64,000 bases of DNA from an uncultured Alphaproteobacteria bacterium (GTDB lineage Bacteria > Pseudomonadota > Alphaproteobacteria > GCA-2731375), in NCBI GenBank assembly GCA_951812805.1, contig CATOSZ010000008.1, positions 1 to 64,000 on the forward strand. The letters run 5' to 3'. Below are positions 2,438-25,300 of this stretch, one piece after another. Each line of letters begins with the position of its first letter. The stretch's first letter is position 1. The translations under genes and the position numbers were made by a program. A model generated the notes under the pieces. That model was not told where the DNA came from, searched no databases, and saw only the letters and a program-made list of their open reading frames with translations.

Positions 2438-3991
2438 ATGCCCAGACGGAAGCAGACGAGACGAACGACGGTGAGAGATGCACGAACGATCCTGCGGCTG
2501 ACGCATGACCAAGGCCTCTCGGCGCGAGAGGTGGCGGAACGGCTGAAGGTCTCCAAGACGACAGTGTCGACCTATTTGCTGCGGGCCCGCGAGGTCGGCC
2601 TTACCGCCTGGCCGCTGCCGGCGGAATACGAGGACGACGCGGTCCTGCAAGAGACGCTGTTCCGCCGCATGGGCCGGCCCCCGCGCGACAGGTGCGAGCC
2701 GCACTGGCCGACGGTCGCGGCCGAGCTGAAGCGCAAGGGGGTGACGCTGACCCTGCTCTGGCAGGAATACCGCGCCTCACATCCCGATGGCTACGGCTAC
2801 ACCTGGTTCTGCGAAGCCTTCACGGCGTTCAAGCGGCGCACCGGCGCCACCTGGCGCAACCGCCACGAGGCCGGTGCGGTCATGCAGACCGATTATGCCG
2901 GCCAGACGGTGGACATCGTCGACCCCGAGACCGGCGAGGTGCACGACGCGCAGATCTTCGTCGCCGTGCTGGGCGCTTCCTCGCTCACCTTCGCCACCGC
3001 CAGCCTGACCCAGCGCCTGCCCGACTGGGTCGCCGGACAATGCCGGGCGCTCGCCTACTTCGGCGGCGTGCCCAAGAGCATCGTCTGCGATAACCTCAAG
3101 GCCGGCGTCGCCAAGCCGCTCTGGTTCGAGCCGACCCTCAACCCGACCTTCGCCGCGCTCGCCGAGCACTACGACACCACCGTCCTGCCGACCCGGGTCC
3201 GCAAGCCGCGCGACAAGGCCAAGGTCGAAGTCGCCGTCCAGGTCGTCGAGCGCTGGATCCTGGCAAGACTGCGCAATACGCGCTTCTTCTCCCTCGACCA
3301 GCTCAACCGGGCGATCCGCGACCTCCTCGAGGAGCTCAACGAGCGGCCCATGCGCAACCTTGGAAAGAGCCGGCGCCAGATGTTCGAGGCCATCGAGCGC
3401 GAGGCCCTGGCACCCCTGCCGACGACGCCCTTCGAATATGCCGAATGGAAGACCGCCAAGGTCCATTCCGACTATCACGTCGACGTCGAGCGCAGCTTCT
3501 ACTCCGTGCCGCACGGCCTGATCGGCCGCAAGGTCCAAGTCCGGCTCACTCACCGCACGGTCGAGATCTTCCACAACCACAAGCGCGTCGCCAGCCATCT
3601 CCGCCGCTCACCGCATGGCGGCCATGCCACGATCCCGGCCCACATGCCCAAGGCGCACCAGCGCTATGCCGAGCGAACGCCACAAAGCCTGATCGACCAG
3701 GCCAGCCGCATCGGCCCCAACGCCGCCCTCCTGGTCGAGCGGATGATCCGCGATCGGCCCCATCCCGAGCAAGGCTATCGCAGCGCCATGGGCGTCTTGT
3801 CGCTCGCCCGCCGATACGAACCGGAACGCGTCGAGGCCGCCTGCGCACGCGCGCTCACCATCAACACGACCAGCTACTCATCGCTCGCCGCCATCCTCAA
3901 GTCCGGCCTCGATCGCACACGCCCCGAGCGCGAACCGCTTCTGCCGCTGCCGCCACACACCAACATCCGCGGCCCCGGCTACTACCGATAA
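2438..3991 (+). CDS. istA: IS21-type transposase IstA
   Basis: A 517-residue DDE transposase. An N-terminal helix-turn-helix (about residues 15-45, [20 protein letters not shown]) recognises the terminal repeats. The RNase H-like core has catalytic Asp152 (in MQTDYAG), Asp218 (in VCDNLK) and Glu264 (in AKVEVAV), followed by the beta-barrel Mu-type C-terminal domain. The ATG at 2438 is chosen over the upstream in-frame ATG at 2423 because GGGAGGGG sits just before it. It needs IstB, encoded 17 bp downstream, for target selection. Length is normal for the family and nothing is disrupted. Confidence 0.95.
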
Positions 3992-4008
3992 CCAGGAGAA
4001 GACACCTC

Positions 4009-4785
4009 ATGCTGACACACCCGACCCTCGACCAGATGCAGGCCCTCGGCTTCAAGGGCATGGCAGAGGCTTACCGCGACATGGCCGAGCGAGGCCAATC
4101 ATCGGAATTGAACCGCGAGGACTGGCTCGCCCTCATGCTCGACCGCGAGGCCGCCACCCGCGCCGACAAGCGCCTCGCCAACCGCCTCAGACAGGCCAGG
4201 CTACGCTTCCCCGAGGCCTGCATCGAGGACATCGACTTCGCCGCCGAACGAGGCCTCGACCGCCGCGCCGTCCTCTCTCTCGCCCAGGGCGTCTGGCTCA
4301 AGGCACACGAGAACCTCATCGTCACCGGCCAGACCGGAACCGGCAAGACATGGCTCGCCTGTGCCATCGCCCATCAGGCCGCCAGGCTCGATCATTCCGT
4401 CCTCTACGTCCGCATGCCCAGGCTCTTCGAGGACCTCGCCATGGCCCGCCTCGACGGCCGGCTGCCCCGCCTGATCGACCGCCTCGCCCGGGTCCAGCTG
4501 CTCGTCCTCGACGACTGGGGAACCCATGGCCTGACCGACCGCCAGCGCCTCGATCTCCTGGAAATCTGCGAGGAACGATACCACCGACGCTCAACCCTCA
4601 TCACCGCGCAGATCCCCGTGACCGCCTGGCACGACCTGATCGGCGAGGCCACCATCGCCGACGCCATCCTCGACCGCGTCATCCACAACGCCCACCGCAT
4701 CGGCTTGAAAGGCGACAGCATGCGAAAGAAGAAATCGACGACCGACTTGACCCAGCCAACCACAACGGAAAACAATCCCGACTGA
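4009..4785 (+). CDS. istB: IS21-type helper ATPase IstB
   Basis: A 258-residue AAA+ ATPase related to DnaC. The Walker A motif GQTGTGKT is at residues 107-114 and Walker B LLVLDDWG at about 164-171. The N-terminal helical region (residues 1-70) is the part that contacts IstA and DNA in this family. AGGAGAA precedes the ATG at a good distance. It shares a transcript with istA and works by preparing target DNA and stimulating IstA strand transfer. Confidence 0.95.
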
Positions 4786-6118
4786 CGGCAACAAGGCACC
4801 CGAAGCCAAACTCCCGGAACCGGCCGGGACTTTATGAAATCGGTGGCCAGGACTTACTGAAACCGCCGTCCGGAACTACCGAAATCCGCATTTCGATGGC
4901 GTCGGAGACTACATCGACACCAGCTTCACGGCGGTTTACGGCGCAGGCGACAGTTTCACTTGGACGGCCTGGGTACGGCCGGAGAATCTTTTCAATCCTT
5001 CCGTATCGAATCCCATCAATGCAATCTCGGGCTTCGAGCGGGGTGGCAATGGCCAAGTCAAGTTCGGGGTGCGTCATCCAAGCAACTCCTTCTCTCCGGG
5101 ATTGCGTTACGCCTCGCTCAGGGACGATGAGGCGAACGAGATCACCCTAAACATCGGCGGGTCGTCCGTTTACGACGGTCAGTGGCGCCATTTTGCGATC
5201 GTCCGAAACGCCGCGAGCGATCGGGTCTTTTTCTACACCGACGGACAGCTGGACATGCCGTTGTCGAGTGGTTCTCCTGACCCGATGACGCAAAGTATCA
5301 ACGCCGACAGCTCGCTGAACATGTACATCGGGGCGAACCATCGTTGGAACATCGCCGGCGGCACCAACGAGCACTTCCAGGGCGCTATCGACGATCTTCG
5401 CATCTACAATCGTGCACTTACTAGTGATGAAATTTCAGCACTTAGTAATCCCGAATCGCTGGCGCAAGCTGATTTGGATCAGACGGTACCTGTCACCGTC
5501 CTAAATGTGAACAACCTGCTGGTGGCCGATGCCGGCTCAAACCAGCCGGTGCGCACCGGAGATACTGTGTACCTCGATGGCGGCGGTAGCGCAGATCCAG
5601 ATGACGACGAGCTGACCTATTCATGGACGATAGTGCCACCGCTTCCAGCGGGTGGAACCGCGACGTTAAGCGATGTGAACACTGTCACGCCATCATTTAT
5701 TCCGGATGTTGAAGGCGCCTATCAAGTCCAGCTGGTCGTGAGTGATTTCATTGGCCCAGGTGAGCCGGACACGGTCACTATCACTGCCGCCTCGGCGGCA
5801 GACGTGGCTGAAGTGATGATCGTAGATGCCGCTGACACGATTGACGACTTACCATCATCAGGCGTGACGACGAGCGGAAATCAAAATGCGCTCGGTAACT
5901 TCTTGGCGCAAGCGATCAATGCAATCCAAGCGGATGATATTGAAACCGCCATCGAAAAATTGGAAAAAGCACTTGAGCGAACCGATGGTTGCACCCTGCG
6001 CGGAGAGGCAGACGGCAATGGTCCGGCGCGAGATTGGATTACCGATGATCCTGATTGCGCTGCGCAGAACGAAGCCCATGAATTGCTGACGGATGCGATC
6101 GACCTCCTAACCCCGTGA

Positions 6119-13463: not shown

Positions 13464-13694
13464 GATGCGCCTCCTCGCTGAAGGAGGAAGCGATGTTCCA
13501 GCCCCCAAAACGACCCCCGACAGCATTGTCACTAGGCTGGCTGGCTCGCTTACCTGCGCCGGAATGCGAGGGGACTCCGATGATCGTTAAGAAAAACTAA
13601 CCGCGTACCGCAAGCACAGTTTGAGCGTAGAGCGCCTGAAAAACGGCCACGGGTGGACTCGGCCTGAATCCGGGCAATGCCAAGGAGACTGATC

Positions 13695-15149
13695 ATGCGC
13701 GATGATGAAGTCGGTCACGGCCATGAAGAGCACGGCAAAACCAACGGCAAGGGCGGCGGCTGGTGGCGGTCTTGGGCCGGACGGCGGGAGCGGGTCGCGG
13801 ACGCGCCTATATATAATGAGTCTGGCGATGAAGCGGCGGCCGGTTCGGATGGCGCCGCCCGGCATGCGGGGAGTGTTCTCGGCACGGCCGGTGCGGCGAT
13901 CACTCTCTATATAGGGAAGCGCCGGGCGCGCAGTGCCGACAAGCGCGCCGGTCTCATGACGCGCATCCGGCACTATGAGGCGAGCGCACCGGCCTTTCCG
14001 ACGGAGAAGGTCGAAAAGGCCCGCGAAGAAGCCACTTCCGCCATTGCCGAAACAGCGGCGGAAATGGTGCGAGGGCTGGACCAACTGCGCGGCCACCGCA
14101 TCGCGGCCTTCACGCATTTTCGGAATATGCAGTCGATCCACGGCACGATCCGCCCGGCCATCGTGCCCGATGTCGTGTTTACGATCTTCTTCGTCATCAT
14201 CGGATTCTTCGTCGAAGGCGCGGCGGCCGGGGCGATGATGAGTATTGACGGCAAGACGGGCGTCCTGCCGGGCCTCGCCTACGGTCTGGCCTTCGCCGGT
14301 GTGAATGTCGCGCTGGCCATGGCCACCGGATTCGTCGCGCGTTGGCTCAATCACCGGGCAATGCCCGGCCCCTATGATCCGGTTGGCAGGCCGAAACGCC
14401 TCGCCGCCGCCGCCGGAGTTGCCGTAGGAATTGGAATTCTCTGCGTTCTGATCTTCGCCGCGATGCGCACGCGCGCGCTCGGCACACATAGCGGCGTGTT
14501 CCAGTTCGAGCAGGTTGGGTTCTGGCAAAGCTTCGACGATTCAATAGCACTCGCCATCCTCGCTCTGGGGCTGGTGGCGTCGTTCATCGGATTTGCCAAA
14601 GGCTATGGCGGCCTGTTCGACCCTATCCCTGGATACGGCCATGCACAGTTGGCCGCCGAGCAGGGCAGCGATGAAAAAGCCGACGAACTGGCTGAGGATG
14701 GTGCGGATGTCATTGAAGACATTGCCGAACGGATTACGGGGCAGATCGAAGATCATTGCCGCACCGCAGCAAAGAGACAGAAGCGCCGCATCAAGACGCA
14801 CCGGAAGCTACTGAAGGCTACGCACCGGCATAACAATTCGGTCGAGCGGTTGCGGACGGACTACCACAGCTATTGCCGACAAGTTCACAGCGGCGCGAGT
14901 TACGTCGCCGGGGGCGATACGTCCGGCGAAGTGCCGCTTGGTGACGAGGATTTCGACCGGGAGCGGATTGACCCGGGCGCGCTGTCTGCGCCCGCCGCCG
15001 ACGCTTTGCCCGAGCAACCGGAAATGCTGCTGAGCGGCCTGGATGCCGCGCGCGAGAGCGCGCTCGCCCGGATCACGGCGGCGCATGTCCGCTTCAAGGC
15101 GGAAGCGCCGAGTTTCATCACCCAGACTCAAGGAGGCCAGACATCATGA
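13695..15149 (+). CDS. Polytopic membrane protein, unknown, mobile-element cluster
   Basis: A 484-residue protein starting at the ATG preceded by AAGGAG (the in-frame ATG at 13677 lacks this). A charged, Gly/His-rich N-terminus precedes a helical region (about 85-150). Hydrophobic segments follow at about 155-175 (VVFTIFFVIIGFF), 190-215, 235-260 (AAGVAVGIGILCVLIFAAM) and 290-310. The C-terminal 170 residues are soluble, helical and basic. It heads an operon with overlapping stop/start codons through the vWA-like gene. The layout suggests an inner-membrane scaffold with a large cytoplasmic tail. No family recognised. Confidence 0.75.
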   Translation: MRDDEVGHGHEEHGKTNGKGGGWWRSWAGRRERVADAPIYNESGDEAAAGSDGAARHAGSVLGTAGAAITLYIGKRRARSADKRAGLMTRIRHYEASAPAFPTEKVEKAREEATSAIAETAAEMVRGLDQLRGHRIAAFTHFRNMQSIHGTIRPAIVPDVVFTIFFVIIGFFVEGAAAGAMMSIDGKTGVLPGLAYGLAFAGVNVALAMATGFVARWLNHRAMPGPYDPVGRPKRLAAAAGVAVGIGILCVLIFAAMRTRALGTHSGVFQFEQVGFWQSFDDSIALAILALGLVASFIGFAKGYGGLFDPIPGYGHAQLAAEQGSDEKADELAEDGADVIEDIAERITGQIEDHCRTAAKRQKRRIKTHRKLLKATHRHNNSVERLRTDYHSYCRQVHSGASYVAGGDTSGEVPLGDEDFDRERIDPGALSAPAADALPEQPEMLLSGLDAARESALARITAAHVRFKAEAPSFITQTQGGQTS

Positions 15150-16021
15150 GTAGACGACGCAGACGGAGCCGGGATAGCGGTGTCAGGCGGGCCCTGATGA
15201 TCACGGCCATGGCGGTGCTGCCACTGAGCGGTATCGGGGCCCTGGGCTGGGGTCTGACAACCCAACTGGACAAGGTCAGCTACGACAAAGTGACCTATTG
15301 CTATCCCCAGGATGGCCAGCACCAGAGCGCGTTCTTCCTGGATGCGAGCTTTACTTCCGGCACCAGTGGTCAGCAGGACCGGGACCTCGCCTCCGAGCTG
15401 ATGCGCACCTTTGACGGCCTGCCGCCCAATGGACGATTGCGGGTGTTTTCGACAGCAAAGGGCGTTGCGTCCTCGACCGGCATTCCCGTCGTCGACATGT
15501 GCGCTCCCCCCGCCACGCCGGAGGAACAGGCGCGGATTGGGGCGGACGAGGAAACCCGCCCACGGCTGATACGCATCAAGGGCGTGGCCAGAGCGGCCTT
15601 TGCTTCAAAGGTCCAGGCGCACCTGGCCGTGATCAAGGATGAGGCCAAGGGTGCGATCGATAGCCCCGTGCTGGAGCAAATCCGGGCGATCAGTAGGTTC
15701 CCGTTCGAGGCGCCCCTCAAGCATCTTGTCGTCTTCACGGACGGGATTCAAAACTCGGATCTGCGGCAATTCTGCCGGGTAAAGGGCCACTTGCCCAGCT
15801 TTGCCAAGTTCGCGAAACAACCGGACTATGAACTGGTGAAGCCGCGTTCACTTGACGGCGTACGCGTTGACATCCTGCTCGTCGAAAACTCCCGCCTGCC
15901 TTCGTCGATCTACCCGTTTTGCACCAATCGTGAAATCCGCACCTGGTGGCCCGAGTTCTTTAAGGCGGCGGGCGCAAACGTCGAGCCGCTGACGCGCATT
16001 CGTTTCGGCGGTGTGGGCTGA
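15146..16021 (+). CDS. Membrane-anchored vWA-like protein, unknown
   Basis: A 291-residue protein whose ATG overlaps the previous stop. A basic N-terminus (MSRRRRRSRD) and one hydrophobic span (residues 15-37) anchor a periplasmic domain. That domain has D-A-S-F-T (about residue 67) after a hydrophobic strand and V-V-F-T-D-G later, which together look like the D-x-S-x-S/T and T-D-G metal-site motifs of von Willebrand A folds. Four Cys outside may form disulfides. Sitting between a polytopic membrane protein and a VirD4-type ATPase, it may be part of an envelope complex. The fold call is from motifs only. Confidence 0.65.
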   Translation: MSRRRRRSRDSGVRRALMITAMAVLPLSGIGALGWGLTTQLDKVSYDKVTYCYPQDGQHQSAFFLDASFTSGTSGQQDRDLASELMRTFDGLPPNGRLRVFSTAKGVASSTGIPVVDMCAPPATPEEQARIGADEETRPRLIRIKGVARAAFASKVQAHLAVIKDEAKGAIDSPVLEQIRAISRFPFEAPLKHLVVFTDGIQNSDLRQFCRVKGHLPSFAKFAKQPDYELVKPRSLDGVRVDILLVENSRLPSSIYPFCTNREIRTWWPEFFKAAGANVEPLTRIRFGGVG

Positions 16022-16031
16022 AACAAGCATC

Positions 16032-17828
16032 ATGAGGCAGGAACAGAACCAAAGACGCGGGGGGCGGATTATCCCGGCCCTCGTGGTCGGCGGCGGGGCG
16101 TATTACGCCTATGACTTTGCCGGACCGCTGTTTCTCGGCGGTCAGGTCAACATGCTGGCCGCCGCCGCCGCGCTGGTTCTGGCCGTGGCCGCCTTAAGCT
16201 TCCTGTCCTCAATCTTCTTCCTGTTGGGCGAGGCGGCGCATCGATGGCGCGCGCTCACGCCGACGGGCCGCAAAGGCACGTCCGGGTGGGTGAGGAGCCT
16301 GCGGGAAATCAAACACGAGCTGATAGCTGAGGGAACGGGCCCTTACTGGGGCGTTCTGAACGGCAAGCCCATCTTCTCGGACTTTTCCAGCTCTGCGCTT
16401 ATATTAGGGCCAAGTGGTGTTGGCAAGGGCGTTAAGCTCGTCATCATGATGATTTTGTGCATTAGAGAGAGCAAAGTCATCATTGATTTCAAATCAGAGT
16501 TGATCGTCATGTTGCGCCCCATTCTAGAGGCGCGCGGCGAGATTGTACGCTGTATCGATTTTGGCAATCTCTGGCCCGACCTGGTCGGACCAACCGACAG
16601 TTATAATTACCTTAATATACTCGCAGATGACTTTAACAGAGAGGGCGGTCTGTACGACATTACCGACAATGCCGACGAGATGGCGCAGCAATTGCTTCCA
16701 GCGGCAGCGGACGACAAGCGCCATCAGAATAGTTACTTCGACATTGGCAGCGTCGATCTGCTGGCCTGGGCCTTCCAGTATATTGTCCTGGTGCTGGGCT
16801 ATACCGGCACGCTTGGCGATGTGCTCGACCTTCTCTTTAGCCGTGAGAAGTGCCTGCATGCGGCACTGTGGGCTTGCGGGCGTCTGGAAATCGATGATCC
16901 CGGGTCGGGCGATGCTCCGGCCTATGCCGATCCGATGCCAATCGAAGAATCATCCTGGGTTCACGTCCACGAGACGGACGAGGTGGAGCGCTATATTCAG
17001 TATTTCCGGGGGGTTTCACTGTCTGTTGCCGAACTGATCGAGGCCACGGACTCCAAAAGTTTCGATAGCTTCAACTCGGGCGCGCGGCAGGTCCTCAAGA
17101 GCTTCAACACCACCACCCGCGTTCACCAGCGCACGCAAACCACTACGGTTCGATTTTCTGAACTCAAAGAAGGGGACACGCCGGTCACGGTCTTCATCCT
17201 GGGTGCTCCGAACAAACTTAACGCCCAGCGGAAACCTATTTCTTTGCTTCAGTGGTGCATGTTCAAGGAATTCAAACAGCATAAAAGCATGAATCGGCGC
17301 AAGGTCTATATGATTGCCGACGAGGCAACCAATTTTAAAATTTTGGATATTGGCACTTTGGTAACGTGGATCAGATCGACCGGTCTTCGTTTAATTATTG
17401 TGATTCAGGCTCTAAAGGCTTTTACAAAGACGTACTCAGATGAAGATCTTGAAATTCTAATGTCCGAAACTGAAATCAAAATTTTCCCGCCGGGCCAGAC
17501 AGAATTGAGGACACGGGAGCTGGTTGAAAAGCTTCTTGGCGAGCAAAGCATCATCGCCCGCAACAACAAAGGAGACCGGGAAAAGAGTTTCTCCGGTCTC
17601 ACGGGATATGACTATCAGGAAGAAGGACGGCCTTTAATGAATGCCGATGAAATAAGGCGCACGGGAAAAGGTATCTTATTCCTGCGAAAGAACAAGCCGA
17701 TCCCTGTAGATTTGCCCAAAGTCTCGGGGATTGAGCCTTATCGTAGAATCCTCGGGATCAACCCGTATTTCGGCAAGCCGTTTCTGACGAAAGTGGTCTT
17801 GCGCCTGCGGCGGAAGGATGTGCCATGA
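16032..17828 (+). CDS. VirD4/TraG-type coupling ATPase
   Basis: A 598-residue protein with two N-terminal membrane spans (about residues 13-35 and 40-65) and a large cytoplasmic ATPase. Walker A is GPSGVGKG at 126-133 and Walker B is KVYMIADEA near 430, with the surrounding ILDIGTLVTWIRSTGLRLIIVIQAL typical of TraG/VirD4 proteins, including the conserved Gln in the IQAL motif. Type IV coupling proteins bring DNA or protein substrates to a secretion channel. No relaxase or VirB genes are visible here, so either they lie outside, the element is mobilised by another system, or this is a specialised use. The first in-frame ATG (16011) overlaps the previous gene; 16032 is preferred. Confidence 0.88.
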   Translation: MRQEQNQRRGGRIIPALVVGGGAYYAYDFAGPLFLGGQVNMLAAAAALVLAVAALSFLSSIFFLLGEAAHRWRALTPTGRKGTSGWVRSLREIKHELIAEGTGPYWGVLNGKPIFSDFSSSALILGPSGVGKGVKLVIMMILCIRESKVIIDFKSELIVMLRPILEARGEIVRCIDFGNLWPDLVGPTDSYNYLNILADDFNREGGLYDITDNADEMAQQLLPAAADDKRHQNSYFDIGSVDLLAWAFQYIVLVLGYTGTLGDVLDLLFSREKCLHAALWACGRLEIDDPGSGDAPAYADPMPIEESSWVHVHETDEVERYIQYFRGVSLSVAELIEATDSKSFDSFNSGARQVLKSFNTTTRVHQRTQTTTVRFSELKEGDTPVTVFILGAPNKLNAQRKPISLLQWCMFKEFKQHKSMNRRKVYMIADEATNFKILDIGTLVTWIRSTGLRLIIVIQALKAFTKTYSDEDLEILMSETEIKIFPPGQTELRTRELVEKLLGEQSIIARNNKGDREKSFSGLTGYDYQEEGRPLMNADEIRRTGKGILFLRKNKPIPVDLPKVSGIEPYRRILGINPYFGKPFLTKVVLRLRRKDVP

Positions 17829-18103
17829 TCAATGGACGCAAGCGCAGCGTCCTGGGCGCGCTCAGCCTGTCGGCGCACGCGCTCAGCATGATGCTCTCTT
17901 ACGGGTGGGTGGTCCTGCTCGTCGCGCTGCTGGCCAGCCCCATCGGCTTACACGTCCGCGTGTCCTACACCTACTATGGCCCGATCTCGGATAAGAGCTT
18001 CACCAGCTGCGCCTATCTCGGATCGCGTGGGATCGTGCATCCCGATCTCGCCCCGGACTGCCCGCTCATCGCCGTTCTTGATGCGCGCGCGTGGGGGCGG
18101 TGA
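17825..18103 (+). CDS. Small membrane protein, unknown
   Basis: A 92-residue protein whose ATG overlaps the coupling-protein stop. One long hydrophobic segment (about residues 25-46, LSYGWVVLLVALLASPIGL) is followed by a roughly 45-residue outer domain with two Cys (SCAYLG and DCPL) that could form a disulfide. Tight coupling to the VirD4-type gene suggests a partner of the ATPase. No family recognised. Confidence 0.7.
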   Translation: MINGRKRSVLGALSLSAHALSMMLSYGWVVLLVALLASPIGLHVRVSYTYYGPISDKSFTSCAYLGSRGIVHPDLAPDCPLIAVLDARAWGR

Positions 18104-18516
18104 TGGCCAGAAAGCCCGATCCAAAACCCGCCGCCGCGCATGACCGGGCGCATGCGCCCGCCAATGATCATGTCACCGGTCCGTGGATCGCACCGGAGAA
18201 AGTGCCGCCGGTGCTGCGCCAGTTCCAGGAAAACCGCGATCCACTGATCAAGGCGCAGCTTCAGGATTTGGAGAAGAGCGAAGCCCAGCGGCGGGAGGAA
18301 AGTGGGCGCGGCTCGGCGATGGTCGGGCAGGAAAAACCGAAACTCAATGCCCGCCCGCCCGAAGAGATGGGCCGCGCCTCCGACCGCAATTCCTTCAATG
18401 AACGCTGGCTGGTCGAACAGCGTGACGCCGTTCTGGACCAGGCCAAACGCCAGCAAGGACCAGCGCGCGAGGGTCCGGCGCATCAACCGGGCCCATCCCG
18501 GGAGCCGTCGCGGTGA
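18103..18516 (+). CDS. Hydrophilic protein with basic C-terminal tail, unknown
   Basis: A 137-residue protein starting at the TGATG overlap with the previous gene. It is disordered-looking and charged (KPDPKPAAAHDRAH at the start). The C-terminus contains LVEQRDAVLDQAK and ends SREPSR, which recurs in the next gene (LVEERDAVMAQAK ... GREPSR) although the rest of the two proteins differs. A shared charged tail just after a coupling ATPase gene may be a recognition signal for export, but this is inference. Confidence 0.7.
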   Translation: MARKPDPKPAAAHDRAHAPANDHVTGPWIAPEKVPPVLRQFQENRDPLIKAQLQDLEKSEAQRREESGRGSAMVGQEKPKLNARPPEEMGRASDRNSFNERWLVEQRDAVLDQAKRQQGPAREGPAHQPGPSREPSR

Positions 18517-18546
18517 CGGTCTTCCCATTTTGCAAGGAGAAGCATG

Positions 18547-18924
18547 ATGAGCAATGAAACCAAACAAGCCCCGATCCAGACATTCAGGGATGGTGGTGTT
18601 GTCGTGAAGCTCTGGCGTCAGGACGGGGGTGAAAACGGCCCCTTCGTCTCGGCGACAATCGGGCGAACCTACCGCGATCCGAAGAGCAATGAGTATCGCG
18701 AGTCCCGCTCGCTTGGCGGCACCGACATGCTCAAGGCGCAAGCGCTTCTGGGCGAGGCGCACCGCGAGGCCCTCAAATGGCGGGAGTATTTCCGCGAGAC
18801 GGAAGGCACCCAGGATCCGCCCAGGGACAAAGATCGATCCGCTAATCTGGTGGAAGAGCGCGATGCGGTGATGGCACAGGCCAAAAGCCCGGACACGGGC
18901 CGTGGCCGGGAACCGTCCCGTTGA
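18547..18924 (+). CDS. Small protein with the same C-terminal tail, unknown
   Basis: A 125-residue protein (an ATG at 18544 is equally possible; AAGGAGA precedes both). The N-terminal part (FRDGGVVVKLWRQDG, GPFVSATIGRTYRDP) looks like a small beta-rich fold, similar in feel to single-strand-DNA-binding or DUF-type proteins in plasmid transfer regions. The tail LVEERDAVMAQAK ... REPSR matches that of the upstream gene. A 30-base gap separates them. Role unknown. Confidence 0.7.
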   Translation: MSNETKQAPIQTFRDGGVVVKLWRQDGGENGPFVSATIGRTYRDPKSNEYRESRSLGGTDMLKAQALLGEAHREALKWREYFRETEGTQDPPRDKDRSANLVEERDAVMAQAKSPDTGRGREPSR

Positions 18925-19101
18925 AGAGCGTCGCAAGCGGCGGGCACTGCAAATGTCCGCCGCTTGCCCGAAGGCCGATCCATAAATATTACAACAAAGG
19001 AATATTTTCCTGTACATGAGAAGGAAATAATGTTAAGGTTGGCGTTTTTGTTCCCTTCAGGGAACGCAAACGAGAGGTACGGAAAGGAGCGAGAAAAAGC
19101 C

Positions 19102-19488
19102 ATGGAAGAAGACGGCACAAGAATGGAAGGGGATGAAAGTACGGGACCGGCGCTTGTCCGGCCTGGGCTGGGCCATAACCGCCCGGCTGTTGAAATCGAT
19201 TACGAAGAGTATCTGCGTTTTCTGGAAGACGACGATATCAGCGAAGCGGATAAGCGCGAATTGCTTGGCCTGCTCTGGTCCATCGTCTGTGAGTTCGTGG
19301 CGATGGGCTTTGGCGTTCATCCTGTCCAACAGGCCCAAGAGAGCTGTGGAAAACCCGAAGAAAATACGCCAAAACCCGCACAGAGCAACGGACATGGTGT
19401 AAACTGTGAGGATGGTAAATTCATAAAATCAATTGACAGGCCCGCCGAATCGGAAAATCCACCGGCGGGGAAAGGAGCCCGAATATGA
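19102..19488 (+). CDS. Small acidic protein preceding the serine recombinase
   Basis: A 128-residue protein if started at MEEDGTRM (19102); an upstream in-frame ATG at 18964 would add 46 residues of doubtful coding quality. It has the segment PGLGHNRPAVE followed by an acidic helix pair (YEEYLRFLEDDDISEADKRELLGLLWSIVCEF), then a low-complexity polar tail. Similar short proteins often precede large serine recombinases in alphaproteobacterial islands. Its stop overlaps the recombinase ATG (ATGA), so expression is coupled, which suggests a directionality or accessory role. Confidence 0.7.
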   Translation: MEEDGTRMEGDESTGPALVRPGLGHNRPAVEIDYEEYLRFLEDDDISEADKRELLGLLWSIVCEFVAMGFGVHPVQQAQESCGKPEENTPKPAQSNGHGVNCEDGKFIKSIDRPAESENPPAGKGARI

Positions 19489-21038
19489 CATCATTTGAAA
19501 AATCGGTGGAGGTGCATGTCAGATCGGTCCTGTATTGCCGCGTCTCCAGCCGGAAGCAGACATCGGACGGCAGCGGCCTGGACAGCCAGGAGCACCGGTG
19601 CCGTCAGTATGCGGCGGCGAAGGGCTATGAGGTCGCGGCCGTGTTCCCCGACGATGTGTCCGGTGGCGGTGACTTCATGCAGCGCCCGGGCATGGTGGCG
19701 CTGCTCAAATATCTCGATGCGCACCCGGGCGAAAATTTTGTCGTCATTTTTGATGATCTGAAACGCTATTCCAGGGATACGGAGTTTCATTTGAAATTGC
19801 GCCGGGAGATGATGGCGCGCAATGCCACGCGCGAATGTCTCAACTTCAATTTTGAGAATTCACCCGAAGGCAAATTTTTTGAAACGATTGTTGCAGCAAC
19901 CGGAACATTGGAGCGCGAACAGAACACCCGCCAGGTCATCCAAAAAATGAAAGCGCGCGTGGAACAAGGCTTCTGGGTCTTCCGCGCGCCCGTCGGCTAT
20001 TGCTACGTTAAATCACCCCGGGGCGGCAAGGAACTGGTGGCCGATGAGCCGTTGGCCACCACCGTACGCGAAGCGCTGGAAGGTTACGCCAGCGGGCACT
20101 TCGCGACGCAAACCGAAGTGAAACGGTTTCTGGAGTCCAAACCGGAGTTCCCCAAGGACAAGCCGAATGGCGAAATCCGCCAGCAGACAATTATCCGTTT
20201 CCTCAACAAGGAAGTCTATGCGGGCCTCGTCGCCGCGCCGAAATGGGGTGTCTCCACGCGCCAGGGCCATCATGAGGGGCTGATCAGCCTCCAGACTTTC
20301 GAGCGTATCCGCCAGAGGCTGAGCGAAACCGCCTATGCGCCTCAGCGCAAGGATATCAATGCTGACTTTCCTTTGCGCGGGGCCGTGTCCTGCGCCTGCT
20401 GTGACACACCGCTCACGGCCGGGTGGTGCAAGGGCAAGAACAAGAAGTATCCGTATTATTTCTGCCGCACGAAGGGGTGTGACGCCTACGCGAAGACCAT
20501 CCGGCGCGGCAAGATCGAGGGTGAGTTCGCCGCATTGCTGGCGTCCGTCCAGCCCGCCACGAAGCTGGTGCGCATCGCCTCGGCGATGTTCGGCAAGGCC
20601 TGGGATCAGTATCAGGCCCGGGCGGAGGGCGATGCCAAGTCCCTCGAACGCGAGATCGAGGATGCCGAGCGTCAGATCGGGCAGCTGGTCGAGCGCATCA
20701 TGGATGCCAGCAACGGGCGCGTTATCGCCGCCTATGAAATGCGGATCGACGCGCTGGAACGGCAAAAGCTGATTCTAGAGGAAAAAGCGGCCCAGGGACC
20801 CGGTCCGCGCCATGGCTTCGACGACATGTTTGAACACGCCACGCAGTTTCTCGCAAGCCCTTGTAAACTCTGGGAAACAGGCCGTTTGGACCTAAGAAGA
20901 CTAATACTCAAACTGGCCTTCCCGGGACATCTGACCTATTGCCGCTCGGAGGGCTTTTTGAACACCAAATTATCCATACCTTTCAGCATGTTAGGGTCTT
21001 TTTCGGGTTCGGAAGGAGGAATGGTGCCGCCGGCGTGA
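19485..21038 (+). CDS. Large serine recombinase (integrase)
   Basis: A 517-residue protein. The N-terminal resolvase domain (residues 12-160) has the nucleophile Ser21 in YCRVSSRKQ and the conserved R-P-G-M and R-Y-S-R-D-T motifs. Next come a recombinase domain (about 175-290) and a zinc ribbon (CACCDTPLTAGWC ... CRTKGC, 305-335). A coiled coil follows (about 385-430). The C-terminus runs into the tRNA-Thr gene on the opposite strand, so the last residues Met-Val-Pro-Pro-Ala and the stop are supplied by attachment-site DNA. This places it as the integrase of the element to its left. Confidence 0.92.
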   Translation: MTSFEKSVEVHVRSVLYCRVSSRKQTSDGSGLDSQEHRCRQYAAAKGYEVAAVFPDDVSGGGDFMQRPGMVALLKYLDAHPGENFVVIFDDLKRYSRDTEFHLKLRREMMARNATRECLNFNFENSPEGKFFETIVAATGTLEREQNTRQVIQKMKARVEQGFWVFRAPVGYCYVKSPRGGKELVADEPLATTVREALEGYASGHFATQTEVKRFLESKPEFPKDKPNGEIRQQTIIRFLNKEVYAGLVAAPKWGVSTRQGHHEGLISLQTFERIRQRLSETAYAPQRKDINADFPLRGAVSCACCDTPLTAGWCKGKNKKYPYYFCRTKGCDAYAKTIRRGKIEGEFAALLASVQPATKLVRIASAMFGKAWDQYQARAEGDAKSLEREIEDAERQIGQLVERIMDASNGRVIAAYEMRIDALERQKLILEEKAAQGPGPRHGFDDMFEHATQFLASPCKLWETGRLDLRRLILKLAFPGHLTYCRSEGFLNTKLSIPFSMLGSFSGSEGGMVPPA

Positions 21039-21096
21039 ATTGAACACGCGACCCCACCCTTACCAAGGGTGTGCTCTACCCCTGAGCTACGGCGGC
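21022..21096 (-). tRNA. tRNA-Thr (anticodon GGT)
   Basis: 75 bases including an encoded CCA end. The acceptor stem GCCGCCG pairs with CGGCGGC, the D arm is GCTC...GAGC, the anticodon loop is TTGGTAA, and the T arm is GCGTG-TTCAATT-CACGC. Its 3' end touches the serine recombinase gene, so it is the probable attachment site of the element on its left. Confidence 0.95.
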
Positions 21097-21161
21097 ACGG
21101 TGGGCCGCGATGGATCTCATTTCGGGGCCCGGCTTCGCAATAGCGAACGGGGGGCGGGGCG

Positions 21162-22142
21162 TCAAGCGTCGAGGCGGAGCAAGGGGCGGGTTTGCGGCCA
21201 GGTGCCGCCGCCCCACAAGGGGAGATGGGTCATCTTCACGCCGGCGCCGCCGGTGACGATCGGCTGGATCACATCCGGGCCCGCCGCCGGCGCCGCGCCG
21301 TTGGCAGGCGCGGTGAACAGGTATTCGCGCAGGCGGTCGAGATCGAAGCCGCGGGCGGCGAGCAGGCGGGCGAGTTCGGGGGGCAGCAGGAAGACCTGGG
21401 CGCCGCGCGGGCGATCGCGTCCGGCACCGGAGACGTCGAGGGCGGTGGCCATAATGCGGGCGAGGGGGGCGAGGACGGCTTCGGCCGTGTCCGCCGGCGG
21501 GTCCGGCAGCACCTCGATCGTGCCGGAGACGCCGAGCACGGTGACGGCGTCAGCATCGCCGTCCAAGCCCATCCGGGCGGCGAGCGGCGGCAAAATGCCC
21601 TCGCGGTTTTCGGCGAAAGCGAAGCCGTATTTGCCGGGCTGGCCCATGGTGGCCATGTCGCCGACATTCTCCCGCGCCCCGGCGATGTTGCGCAGACAGA
21701 GGCTGAGCGCCCGGCCGAGCGTCGCGTTGGCGCGGTTGCCGGGGCCGAGGCAGTTGGTCGCCGCGTTCATCTCCAGCCGGCGGGCGATCGGTCCGTGCAC
21801 GCAGAGCGCCACCGCCGGCGTGCCGGTCGTGGTCAAGAGGCCCAGCAGATTGAAGTCCGACTCCAGACAGGCGAGGAGCGCCGTCAGCACCACCGGCAAG
21901 GCGCCCGGCGCACAGCCCGCCATGACGCAATCATGCGCCGCCGCCCGCGCGGTCAGTTCGCCAAAGAGCGGCGGCAGCGCGCCGAGGGGGGCATCGGGTG
22001 CCCGAACCCCCGCCAGCATCGCGGCCATCCGTGCCGTCGTGGGCGGCACCAGCGGCAGGCCATCGTCGAGGCCGCGGGCCGTCAGTTCCGCCTGCGCCCG
22101 TTCCCACGCGATGTCGTCGGCGAAGAGGGGGCGCCCGTCCAT
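21162..22142 (-). CDS. UGSC-operon protein, paralogue 1, unknown function
   Basis: A 326-residue soluble protein, last in the minus-strand operon, starting 9 bases after the stop of its paralogue at 22152. Both share the layout G-x-P-L-V-x-P near the N-terminus, A-G-C in a following helix, an N-C-x-G motif followed by R-A-N-A-T-(I/L)-G-R-A-L, and P-x-K-Y-x-F-x-F-A-E-N. In this copy the motif is TNCLGPGNRANATLGRAL and the later FCFAENEE has become FAFAENRE. The conserved Cys residues beside a Sec-containing protein suggest a thiol-based or metal-sulfur role. I know no characterised member. The C-terminal part is shorter than in the paralogue. Confidence 0.75.
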   Translation of the reverse strand: MDGRPLFADDIAWERAQAELTARGLDDGLPLVPPTTARMAAMLAGVRAPDAPLGALPPLFGELTARAAAHDCVMAGCAPGALPVVLTALLACLESDFNLLGLLTTTGTPAVALCVHGPIARRLEMNAATNCLGPGNRANATLGRALSLCLRNIAGARENVGDMATMGQPGKYGFAFAENREGILPPLAARMGLDGDADAVTVLGVSGTIEVLPDPPADTAEAVLAPLARIMATALDVSGAGRDRPRGAQVFLLPPELARLLAARGFDLDRLREYLFTAPANGAAPAAGPDVIQPIVTGGAGVKMTHLPLWGGGTWPQTRPLLRLDA

Positions 22143-22151
22143 CGCCGGGCT

Positions 22152-23204
22152 CTAGGTCGAGGCGAGCGGCGGATTGGCGACGCGGACCGAGCAGGCCTCG
22201 GTGAAGCCGAAGGGCGGGATATAGGCCGAGTGCTTGCCGGGGCCGCCGGCGACCAGGACGTGGATGTCCTCCGGCCCGTTGGTCAGCGGATAGTGGTCGT
22301 CGACCAGGGGGCGATCCATCGAGGCATAGCTCTCGCGGTTTTCCGGCGAGACGCGGGAGATATGCACGGCGGAGCGTTCGAAGACGGCGGCCTGGATGTC
22401 CTCGATTCCCAGGCCGTCGCGGGCGAGCGTCGCCGCGTGCTCCGGCCCCAGCACCAGGAAGAAGGGCGCGGTCGAGTAGATCGTGTTGGCGCCGACCTGA
22501 CTGACGGTGTTGGCGATCGTGGTGAGCAGGCCGTCGCCGCTGGTTGAACCGTGGTCGTTGATGTTGTGCGGCGCCTCGGCCGGGATCGCCGTCACCACGC
22601 TGTCGGCGGCGGCGAACCCCCGGCGCACGTGATAGGGCGCCCAGGGGCTTTCCTCCTCGTTCTCGGCGAAACAGAAGGCGTATTTCGCCGGCGTGCCCTG
22701 GGTCGAGCGGTCCATCACGCCGGGCTTGGCGCCGCCGACGTTCAGCAGGATCAGCTGCAGCGCCCGGCCGATGGTGGCGTTGGCCCGCCAGCCCTGGCCG
22801 AAACAGTTGGAGGAACAGTTGATCTCCAGCTCGCGCCGCAGCGGGCCGCTCACCAGCAGCATCTGGGCGCAGGAATGCGTCGTCGCGAGGGAGCCGTGCA
22901 GATTGTATTCGGGCTTCAGGACGGCGCGCGCCGCGGCGACGACGACGGGAAAATATTCCGCCCGGCAGCCGGCCATCACGGCGTTCGCGGCGAGCGAGCG
23001 GAGCGTCGGCACGACGCGGCGTGGCGACATCGGCGCGAACGGCTCGTTGTCGCCCCGGCAGGTCGCGACGAAACGGTCGACCAAGTCCTCGCTCGGCATC
23101 ACCAGAGGGAAGCCGTCGCTCCAGCCTTGCTCAATCGCATAATCGTTCCAGGTGGCGGCGTCGAGCTCGTCCAGCTCGATCACCTCCTCGTCTTCGTGGC
23201 TCAT
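22152..23204 (-). CDS. UGSC-operon protein, paralogue 2, unknown function
   Basis: A 350-residue soluble protein starting at MSHEDEEVIELDE; GGAAGGA is nine bases upstream, which decides against an earlier in-frame ATG. Conserved parts: WSDGFPLVMPSEDLV (about 28-42), MAGCRAEYFPVVV (about 78-90), NCSSNCFGQGWRANATIGRAL (about 125-145) and KYAFCFAENEESPW (about 170-183). The sequence shows four well-placed Cys, two of them in N-C-S-S-N-C. It is 91 bases downstream of the selenoprotein stop. The function is not known to me. A catalytic or binding partner of the UGSC protein is the natural inference. Confidence 0.75.
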   Translation of the reverse strand: MSHEDEEVIELDELDAATWNDYAIEQGWSDGFPLVMPSEDLVDRFVATCRGDNEPFAPMSPRRVVPTLRSLAANAVMAGCRAEYFPVVVAAARAVLKPEYNLHGSLATTHSCAQMLLVSGPLRRELEINCSSNCFGQGWRANATIGRALQLILLNVGGAKPGVMDRSTQGTPAKYAFCFAENEEESPWAPYHVRRGFAAADSVVTAIPAEAPHNINDHGSTSGDGLLTTIANTVSQVGANTIYSTAPFFLVLGPEHAATLARDGLGIEDIQAAVFERSAVHISRVSPENRESYASMDRPLVDDHYPLTNGPEDIHVLVAGGPGKHSAYIPPFGFTEACSVRVANPPLAST

Positions 23205-23295
23205 GAGATCTCGTCCTTCCCCCTCGCGGACAACAACGGACATCGCCCCCGCACGGTGCACGGGCGATGCCGGCCGGCTCCGGCGGCGTGGGCGT

Positions 23296-23814
23296 TCAGG
23301 CCCCGATCGCCGCGCGCAGGCTGTTGGTGGCGGTGTCGATCCGCTCCGCCAGCTCTTCGGTGTTCAGGCCGCCCACCGGATGGCTGACGACCAGGACCTT
23401 GGGCGTGACGTTGCGCGCCCGGGCCTGCGCCTGCACCAACGGCAGGAAGACCTTGGTGGTGACGATATAGGTCTCGACGCCGCGCTTCTCGAGTTCGATG
23501 CTGTCATGGAAACTCCACGACGAGCATGCGCCTCAATCCGCGAGCGCGAGCAGCGCTCCGCGTCGGGTCCGGGCCACCTCTTCGATCATCTCGGGCGGCG
23601 CCGGCTGGGCCGGGCTGTCCTTGGTAATGTAGGTGACGTCGGAGATGTCGCGATAGTCGGCGAGGCTGTCGCGCACGCCTTCCAACAGTTCGCGGGCGTT
23701 CGGCTTGGCGTTGCCGAACAGGATGATGGGATCGCGCGCCCAGTCGACCGGGCGGGCATCACTTTTCGCATCGCCGTCGGCCACCAGGCCGAAGGCGGGA
23801 TTGACGATACGCAT
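23296..23814 (-). CDS. UGSC-family selenoprotein with in-frame UGA (Sec94)
   Basis: Started at ATG 23814 (GGGGAG nine bases upstream), the frame runs 93 codons to a TGA at 23535-23533 and continues 78 codons to a real TGA at 23298-23296, 172 residues in all. The TGA is followed by Gly-Ala-Cys, giving Sec94-x-x-Cys97, the redox motif of the UGSC family whose Sec form is known. The downstream part (SSWSFHDSIELEKRGV, then VVSHPVGGLNTEEL) is plainly coding and matches that family. A SECIS-like hairpin follows the UGA. A standard gene call would stop at 23533 and lose the C-terminal half. The product is probably a small redox protein; its substrate is unknown. Confidence 0.88.
23499..23526 (-). 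promoter_or_regulatory. Bacterial SECIS-like hairpin for Sec94
   Basis: The hairpin begins 6 bases after the UGA. The outer stem TGCT/AGCA (23526-23523 with 23502-23499), one bulged C (23522) and a 7-bp inner stem (GTCGTGG with CCATGAC, one G-U pair) close a 5-base loop AGUUU. The loop starts 18 bases after the UGA and carries a G-U near its 5' side, as expected for SelB-binding hairpins in bacteria. Confidence 0.8.
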
Positions 23815-23889
23815 GACGGGTGTCTCCCCTGCTGTGCTCGGTGGCGGGATGATAGCAGGCTTGCCGCTACCCCCGCTCACCCGTCGCCT

Positions 23890-24216
23890 TCAGCCACCGT
23901 GCTTGGGGCCGATCGGCGTCCAGACCCAGGCACCGATCGTCTCGCGGTTGATGGCATCTGAATTGTTTCGCTCCTCCCCCTTGGCCTCGATCGAGGGGAA
24001 GACCTCGCCCGGGTCGTCGACCTCGACCTCGTAGACGGCGAGATAGCGGTTCGGCGCGGCCGCACCCTTCTCGGCGGCGAGTTCGAAGCGCTGGGCGCTG
24101 ACCACCGCCGAGGTCCCGATCACTTCGTCCAGGTGGGTGTTCTCGTACCACTCGTTGTACTCGTCCTCGCGGCCCTCGACCGCTTCGCTCAGGACCATGA
24201 ACAGTTGGCGTGCCAT
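23890..24216 (-). CDS. EthD-like dimeric alpha/beta-barrel protein
   Basis: A 108-residue protein, first in the UGSC operon; GGGGAG is upstream of the ATG. The pattern LFMVLSEAVEGREDEYNEWYENTHLDEV is typical of the EthD/ferredoxin-like dimeric barrel group: a beta strand, then the N-E-W-Y-x-x-x-H-x-x-E motif. Later YLAVYEVEVDD and the W-V-W-T-P end fit the family. Members include monooxygenase helpers and small-molecule lyases. The operon position suggests that it acts with the selenoprotein, substrate unknown. Confidence 0.75.
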   Translation of the reverse strand: MARQLFMVLSEAVEGREDEYNEWYENTHLDEVIGTSAVVSAQRFELAAEKGAAAPNRYLAVYEVEVDDPGEVFPSIEAKGEERNNSDAINRETIGAWVWTPIGPKHGG

Positions 24217-24377
24217 TTTTCGTCTCCCCGGTTTCCTGTGTCGTGTGGCAAATCGTGACCGAGGCCGGCCGCGAAGGCAACCGGCCGTGCGGGATTGAGC
24301 CCGGACGGGGCTGGCGGTTATTGTCCCCCGGCGCCGGCCGCTGCCGTCGGCGATTTGGCAATCGAGGGAGGAGACGC
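24217..24377. promoter_or_regulatory. Divergent promoter region, UGSC operon and hydratase operon
   Basis: 161 bp between the divergent starts at 24216 (minus) and 24378 (plus). Promoters for both operons must lie here or nearby, but I see no clear boxes or operator dyad. Confidence 0.4.
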
Positions 24378-24863
24378 ATGTCCGACGATGTGATCATGCC
24401 GGTCGAGGCGACGCACATCTTGATGTTCGCCCGTGCCGTTGGCGACGACAATCCGATTTACCGCGACGCCGAGGCCGCCGCGAAGACCGAGGTCGGCCAT
24501 ATCATCGCGCCGCCGACCTTTCCGCGCGCGGTCAGCCAGTTCGATCCGGACTATTTCCTCCGGCTGAAGCCCGGCGAGAAGTGGTTCGGTTCCGGGCGCA
24601 ACGCAACCGGCCTCGACGGCCCGGCCAAGAGCAGCGGCGGCCTGCATGCCGAGCAGCACTTCGAGTACCACCGCCAGATGAAGCCCGGCGACGTGTTGTC
24701 GGTCGTCACCCGGGAGGGCAAGACCTGGGAGAAGGAGAGCCGGCGGGCCGGCAAACTGATCTTCACCGAGCGGGTGAGTGAGTACCGCGACCAGGACGGC
24801 GAACTGGTGATCACCGCGCGCGCCGTCGGCGTCAAGACCGAACGTCCGGTCGAGCAGAACTGA
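24378..24863 (+). CDS. FAS1-like dehydratase-domain protein (hotdog hydratase, N-half)
   Basis: A 161-residue MaoC-like N-terminal (FAS1_DH) hotdog domain: VEATHILMFARAVGDDNPIYRD at the start, IIAPPTFPRAV, and GLHAEQHFEYHRQMKPGDVL, which precedes the central helix. GGGAGGAG precedes the ATG. Proteins of this type pair with a MaoC partner, here the next gene 11 bases downstream, to make one enoyl/hydroxyacyl-CoA hydratase in which only one half carries the catalytic Asp/His. It probably acts on a branched or substituted acyl-CoA. Confidence 0.85.
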   Translation: MSDDVIMPVEATHILMFARAVGDDNPIYRDAEAAAKTEVGHIIAPPTFPRAVSQFDPDYFLRLKPGEKWFGSGRNATGLDGPAKSSGGLHAEQHFEYHRQMKPGDVLSVVTREGKTWEKESRRAGKLIFTERVSEYRDQDGELVITARAVGVKTERPVEQN

Positions 24864-24874
24864 GGGAGGCGACA

Positions 24875-25300
24875 ATGGCTTTGAACGCGAGCGATCTGAA
24901 CGCGGGCGATACCCACGAGGAGGTCGTGGTCGACGACCTAACGCGCACCCAGCTGGTGATGTATGCGGGTGCCAGCGGCGACTACAACCCGCTGCACACG
25001 GACGAGGTCTATTGCAAGGAGGCCGCCGGCTACGAGCGCGGAACCTTTGCCCACGGCATGCTCTCCATGGGCCTCACCGGCAAGATGCTGACCAACTTCG
25101 TCGGTGACGGGCGGCTGACCAAATACGGCGTGCGGTTTACCAACCAGGTCTGGCCCGGCGATACGCTGACCGCCAGGGCCACGGTGGTCGAGGTCCGCGC
25201 GGAGGGCGGCGAGCACTTCGTCGACCTCGATGTCGTGACCACCAACCAGGACGGTGCCACCGTCATCACCGGCAGCGCCACCGCGCGCGTCGATCCCTGA
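24875..25300 (+). CDS. MaoC-family hydratase (hotdog, catalytic half)
   Basis: A 141-residue MaoC-like domain with the hydratase motif YAGASGDYNPLHTDEVY (catalytic Asp and His in D-Y-N-P-L-H) and FAHGMLSMGLTGKML. It is encoded immediately after the FAS1-like half and just before an SDR gene, so the three probably hydrate an enoyl-CoA and oxidise the product. GGGAGG precedes the ATG. Confidence 0.88.
   Translation: MALNASDLNAGDTHEEVVVDDLTRTQLVMYAGASGDYNPLHTDEVYCKEAAGYERGTFAHGMLSMGLTGKMLTNFVGDGRLTKYGVRFTNQVWPGDTLTARATVVEVRAEGGEHFVDLDVVTTNQDGATVITGSATARVDP

Follow-up and report, generated by a model that had tools for sequence, protein, structure and literature searches.

The UGSC locus

The window, i.e., the whole stretch of 64,000 nucleotides that was analysed, encodes on its minus strand a member of the UGSC family whose frame is interrupted by an internal TGA, followed by two paralogous genes, here named P1 and P2 (Table 1). 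The UGSC frame begins with the ATG at 23814 and comprises 93 sense codons, the TGA, and 78 further sense codons up to the stop TGA at 23298-23296. Re-reading this frame has confirmed the first-pass annotation, which had placed the in-frame TGA at 23535-23533 and had noticed the residues Gly-Ala-Cys right after it. The resulting U-x-x-C motif, with a Gly following the putative Sec, is UGAC in the window copy and UGSC in most of its relatives.

A tRNA gene (21025-21096, minus strand) directly adjoins both P2 and the end of a large serine recombinase gene (19485-21038). The region 13677-21096 also contains a gene for a TraG/VirD4-type coupling protein (16011-17828), and an integrated conjugative element likely ends here, next to the tRNA gene.

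Table 1. Features of the UGSC locus (positions in the window).
Feature	Position	Strand	Remarks
UGSC-family selenoprotein gene (predicted)	23296..23814	-	172 aa with UGA as Sec; stop TGA included
In-frame UGA, codon 94, putative Sec	23533..23535	-	TGA in 81/81 sequences; Cys codon in genomes without a real selA match
Putative Sec-Gly-Ala-Cys redox motif (U-x-x-C)	23524..23535	-	
Predicted bacterial SECIS hairpin	23499..23526	-	Fold, compensatory changes, frozen codons
Partner P1	22152..23204	-	350 aa; conserved MAGC motif; 91 nt after UGSC
Partner P2	21162..22142	-	326 aa; paralogous to P1, with 35% identity; separated from P1 by 9 nt

Assignment to the UGSC family

The read-through protein matches the Pfam family UGSC (PF24696) over its whole length (residues 3-169, E=2e-31, 109.9 bits, gathering score 25), which bears out the family membership and the U-x-x-C pair that had been proposed from the sequence. 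The NCBIfam model for the UGSC family (seleno)protein (NF041046) gives 2.7e-31 and 108.6 bits, below its equivalog cut-off of 125. As the Pfam threshold is passed and the NCBIfam one is missed, the window protein is a family member by Pfam that lies outside the NCBI equivalog core. Five orthologues of the window subfamily, among whose scored members are those of Reyranella massiliensis and Enhydrobacter aerosaccus, two cultured relatives whose orthologues have the TGA, reach 106-114 bits with NF041046, and a divergent paralogue (L109) reaches 46 bits. Because the subfamily falls below the cut-off that NCBI uses for UGSC, the annotation probably truncates the window gene; the idea that this gene would remain hidden in a standard annotation is thus plausible, and probably in dozens of genomes the genes of this subfamily are recorded as fragments some 93 residues long. 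UGSC is a known but functionally uncharacterised family, and our literature search found no paper on its biochemistry.

Recoding of the internal UGA

The 80 nearest homologous loci, collected from GTDB contigs, were aligned with the window copy over their whole length, yielding a set of 81 sequences. In all 80 homologues (54-64% identity) the codon aligned with the internal TGA of the window gene is likewise TGA, with G[A/S]CSSWSFHDSIE right behind it, and none of them departs from the pattern of TGA plus a conserved downstream half, so that the case of homologues ending at codon 93, named at the outset as one of those that would speak against recoding, does not occur among them. Downstream of the UGA, close pairs of this orthologue group show dN values of 0-0.015 vs dS values of 0.06-0.41, indicating that this half of the protein is under strong purifying selection. 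Similarly, in the 15 genomes from the bacterium's own taxonomic family each UGSC match holds exactly one TGA, with the exception of one terminal fragment.

UGSC is rare in the phylum, since only 7 of 398 genomes in a spread sample have a match, a count that includes the source genome itself and a single weak match below the threshold. A Cys occupies the Sec position in three of them (G462, G259, and G369), as had been anticipated for codon 94, and none of these three has a selA match over the cut-off (19 bits only in G369). The UGSC copy of G369 may be decaying, as it is split and carries a TGA at another position. Conversely, G080 and G400 have TGA at the Sec position and both possess selA. 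G004 contains TGA copies of UGSC and no selA match, its assembly being fragmented.

The source genome (7.42 Mb, 98.5% complete) encodes the four components of the Sec machinery that the first-pass annotation had proposed to look for, i.e., adjacent selA and selB (C17:62458 and C17:63834), selD (C1:682991), and selC, the tRNA-Sec with the anticodon TCA (C1:681477). The selD match (C1:682991-683887) lies inside an open frame of 739 codons, and therefore it may belong to the Ndh-SelD fusions already known.

A reading with translation table 11 yields a 93-residue protein, as would be expected if the TGA were a real stop within a pseudogene, a sequencing error, or a boundary between two separate reading frames. 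This explanation is refuted by the 81 sequences that share the TGA position, the purifying selection downstream, the Cys homologues, and the complete Sec machinery, and its probability is negligible.

The SECIS hairpin

The minimum-energy fold of positions 23526-23499 has 8 + 4 bp flanking a bulge of one base, and within it a conserved core (23521-23503) of 7 bp closes the loop AGUUU (23514-23510). The core spans from +14 to +32 counted from the T of the TGA and its loop begins 18 nt downstream of the UGA, in agreement with the G-U containing loop reported at this distance by the first-pass annotation; the hairpin described there is real, and its 11 bp are approximately right given the fold and core found here. 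The loop of the core is AGUUU or UGUAU in the sequences compared.

Fold energy alone is only modest evidence for the window hairpin, as 4.4% of codon-usage-weighted synonymous shuffles fold equally well. We have also rejected it as a proof of a SECIS since it is not extreme for three of the eight UGSC copies of the genome. It is the comparative evidence, i.e., conservation, covariation, and frozen codons, that makes this hairpin more than a chance structure. Among 29 distinct sequences, 95.6% of the cells are paired with compensatory changes, a count that leaves out four sequences (two from this genome) that fold in another register around a six-base loop, and the pairing falls to 53% or less when one arm is slid by 1-3 columns as a control. 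The pair closing the loop swaps between G-C and C-G along with the encoded amino acids (Trp-Ser-Phe vs Cys-Ser-Leu). In addition, the hairpin codons Ser TCG, Ser AGT, Phe TTC, and Asp GAC are identical in 81/81 sequences of the orthologue group; conserved fourfold codons elsewhere in the gene mostly have 1.1-1.7 bits. An Rfam search over 21000-25000 did not find any described element at the UGA.

The link between the recoded TGA and a local conserved hairpin also argues against an altered code, in which TGA would be read as an ordinary amino acid throughout the genome. Beyond the open frame, nothing favours this possibility. The UGSC gene itself ends at a TGA and selA, selB, selD, and tRNA-Sec are present, and together with the hairpin these results refute an altered code, leaving it next to no likelihood. 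Taken together, these comparisons strongly support the earlier selenoprotein reading, and the window gene almost certainly encodes a selenoprotein with the internal UGA read as selenocysteine, that is, a correctly read selenoprotein of an already known family.

Partner proteins and redox neighbours

PF24696 detects eight UGSC copies in the source genome, all of which contain a single TGA. Identity between the window copy and the remaining seven is no more than 15-27%, and thus these copies represent old subfamilies. A search of the genome with P1 found ten places, including P1 itself, and all ten adjoin a UGSC gene. In 65 of the 68 orthologue loci with enough sequence, P1 and P2 lie downstream of UGSC and are co-directional with it, and three UGSC copies of the source genome are fused to the partner (those on C4, C16, and C3:2232855). 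Upstream of the fusion on C4 there are two ORFs of 532 aa (L139:131-1729 and 3221-4819) that share their first 50 residues, length, and coding score, and are probably transposase copies.

Searches of P1 and P2 in Pfam and NCBIfam gave no match, and PDB sequence searches with P1 and with UGSC gave nothing real. At two loci, paralogous partners begin with a Trx-like CPTC stretch, spotted by eye from the CPTC and VPTL residues; a Pfam search of this region gave no match. The partner contains a nearly invariant Cys within the MAGC motif and many other invariant residues. This fact would fit a catalytic partner, with UGSC only keeping it reduced or passing selenium or sulfur to it, and so would the fusion of UGSC to an uncharacterised domain already reported by Zhang and Gladyshev (PMC2398784). 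However, the fused partner on C4 has MAGL at the position of the MAGC motif, Sec is as a rule retained where catalysis takes place, and the similarity to PrdB/GrdB described below also puts the Sec there, making a catalytic role of the partner quite improbable.

A gene encoding a thioredoxin-reductase-like flavoprotein (CAACDG) is found directly upstream of UGSC in 53 of 77 orthologue loci, and a similar one (CAFCDA) lies beside a UGSC paralogue at L145. The window's own locus has no adjoining thioredoxin reductase. At four loci (L065, L066, L073, and L079) selA and selB are located just upstream of the flavoprotein gene. The neighbours of the eight copies include genes for CoA-transferase III, amidohydrolase, ABC transporters, the arginase family, and Meth_synt_2, and such varied catabolic and uptake functions fit different substrates for the eight copies.

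Predicted fold and relationship with PrdB/GrdB

The AlphaFold2 model of UGSC (pLDDT 89.9) has five beta-alpha units, the Sec lying where the helix following strand 3 begins, and its best PDB fold matches are flavodoxin-like, with a TM of about 0.5. A Trx-like fold was neither predicted by AlphaFold2 nor matched in the PDB, and thus the fold of UGSC is predicted to be flavodoxin-like, not thioredoxin-like as proposed in 2008. The PDB fold search of the P1 model gave no match with E < 0.001, and hence a role of the partner as substrate binder is one that we infer. Fumarase-like and selenophosphate-synthetase-like rows in this search were weak (TM about 0.1-0.26) and we have rejected both as identities of P1.

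The window protein has no direct match to PF07355 (GrdB/PrdB), PF24696 being the only family found. The source genome has four matches to PF07355, at L160 (C8:328150), L170 (C3:1748973), L175 (C3:1462852), and C2:138247. The first three were examined, and in each of them a TGA with P-x-C after it interrupts the frame; they therefore probably encode further selenoproteins. When the UGSC profile was compared with a PrdB-like profile using hhalign, we obtained a score of 35.7 (P=4e-4) for an alignment of about 78 columns that places Sec against Sec; as controls, 150 column shuffles scored 19.1 at most, and the unrelated pair A1-A2 gave P=0.23. These profiles suggest that UGSC is likely, but not proven, to be homologous to PrdB/GrdB.

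Proposed function of the UGSC system

The fixed neighbours point to UGSC as the subunit of a reductase that carries the active site. The comparative evidence indicates that SelB and Sec-tRNA recode the UGA at codon 94, guided by the hairpin beginning 11 nt downstream. The protein is predicted to adopt a flavodoxin-like alpha-beta fold in which the helix behind strand 3 presents Sec and Cys at its N-terminus. UGSC and P1/P2, always neighbours or fused, would act together as a soluble reductase with UGSC as its active-site subunit. The Sec-Cys pair may receive electrons from NAD(P)H by way of the thioredoxin-reductase-like flavoprotein or of a Trx-like domain, and the Sec might then attack, and reduce or reductively cleave, a small molecule held by the partner, by analogy with the GrdB/PrdB reductases. 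Among the eight divergent copies, the substrates or pathways served would differ. The Sec at codon 94, the SECIS, the partner linkage, and the redox neighbour are the elements of this scheme brought out by sequence comparison, and to the whole statement, i.e., a selenoprotein acting with P1/P2 as the active-site subunit of a reductase whose eight copies have different substrates or pathways, we assign a probability of roughly 0.58.

The selenoprotein could instead be a general thiol oxidoreductase or peroxidase involved in redox defence, as the UxxC motif and the adjoining thioredoxin-reductase-like gene would allow, and as would agree with the grouping of UGSC among thiol oxidoreductases and the Trx-like fold proposed for it (Zhang and Gladyshev, 2008; PMC2398784). 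Nevertheless, the predicted fold is flavodoxin-like, and substrate specificity accounts better both for the dedicated partner of 330-350 aa at every locus and for the eight divergent copies found in varied surroundings of catabolic and transport genes; we thus consider redox defence unlikely, if less so than a catalytic partner. Returning to the substrate-specific reductase, a bolder and tentative extension, which we hold somewhat less probable than the reductase itself, is that UGSC with P1/P2 forms an unrecognised class of selenocysteine reductases, remotely related to PrdB/GrdB and supplied by its own thioredoxin-reductase-like flavoprotein, and that the alphaproteobacterial family of the source bacterium has expanded this class, with up to eight versions in one genome, each for its own substrate. 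The function of UGSC becomes testable through the partner system and the link to PrdB/GrdB, which together with the reductase neighbour provide the first concrete testable proposal that we have found for its role.

Comparison with known systems

The window protein resembles the known UGSC family (PF24696, NF041046; PMC2398784) in the whole-length profile match, the U-x-x-C motif, and the combination of TGA and SECIS, and a fusion with a second conserved domain has been reported for the family too (PMC2398784). It differs in its UGAC motif, in its score with respect to the NCBI equivalog cut-off (108.6 vs 125 bits), and in its predicted flavodoxin-like fold vs the Trx-like one proposed in 2008 (PMC2398784).

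With PrdB/GrdB (PF07355), from the proline and glycine-type reductases, UGSC shares the profile similarity with Sec on Sec and the redox neighbours, but the UGSC partner proteins match no known family. Moreover, the UGSC system is found here in alphaproteobacteria, whereas the characterised PrdB/GrdB-type enzymes come from clostridia and similar anaerobes. Finally, at most of the orthologue loci the gene upstream of UGSC carries the CxxCD active-site motif of the thioredoxin-reductase-like flavoproteins (PF07992), but its product is a divergent protein of about 300 aa that is linked to UGSC instead of thioredoxin.
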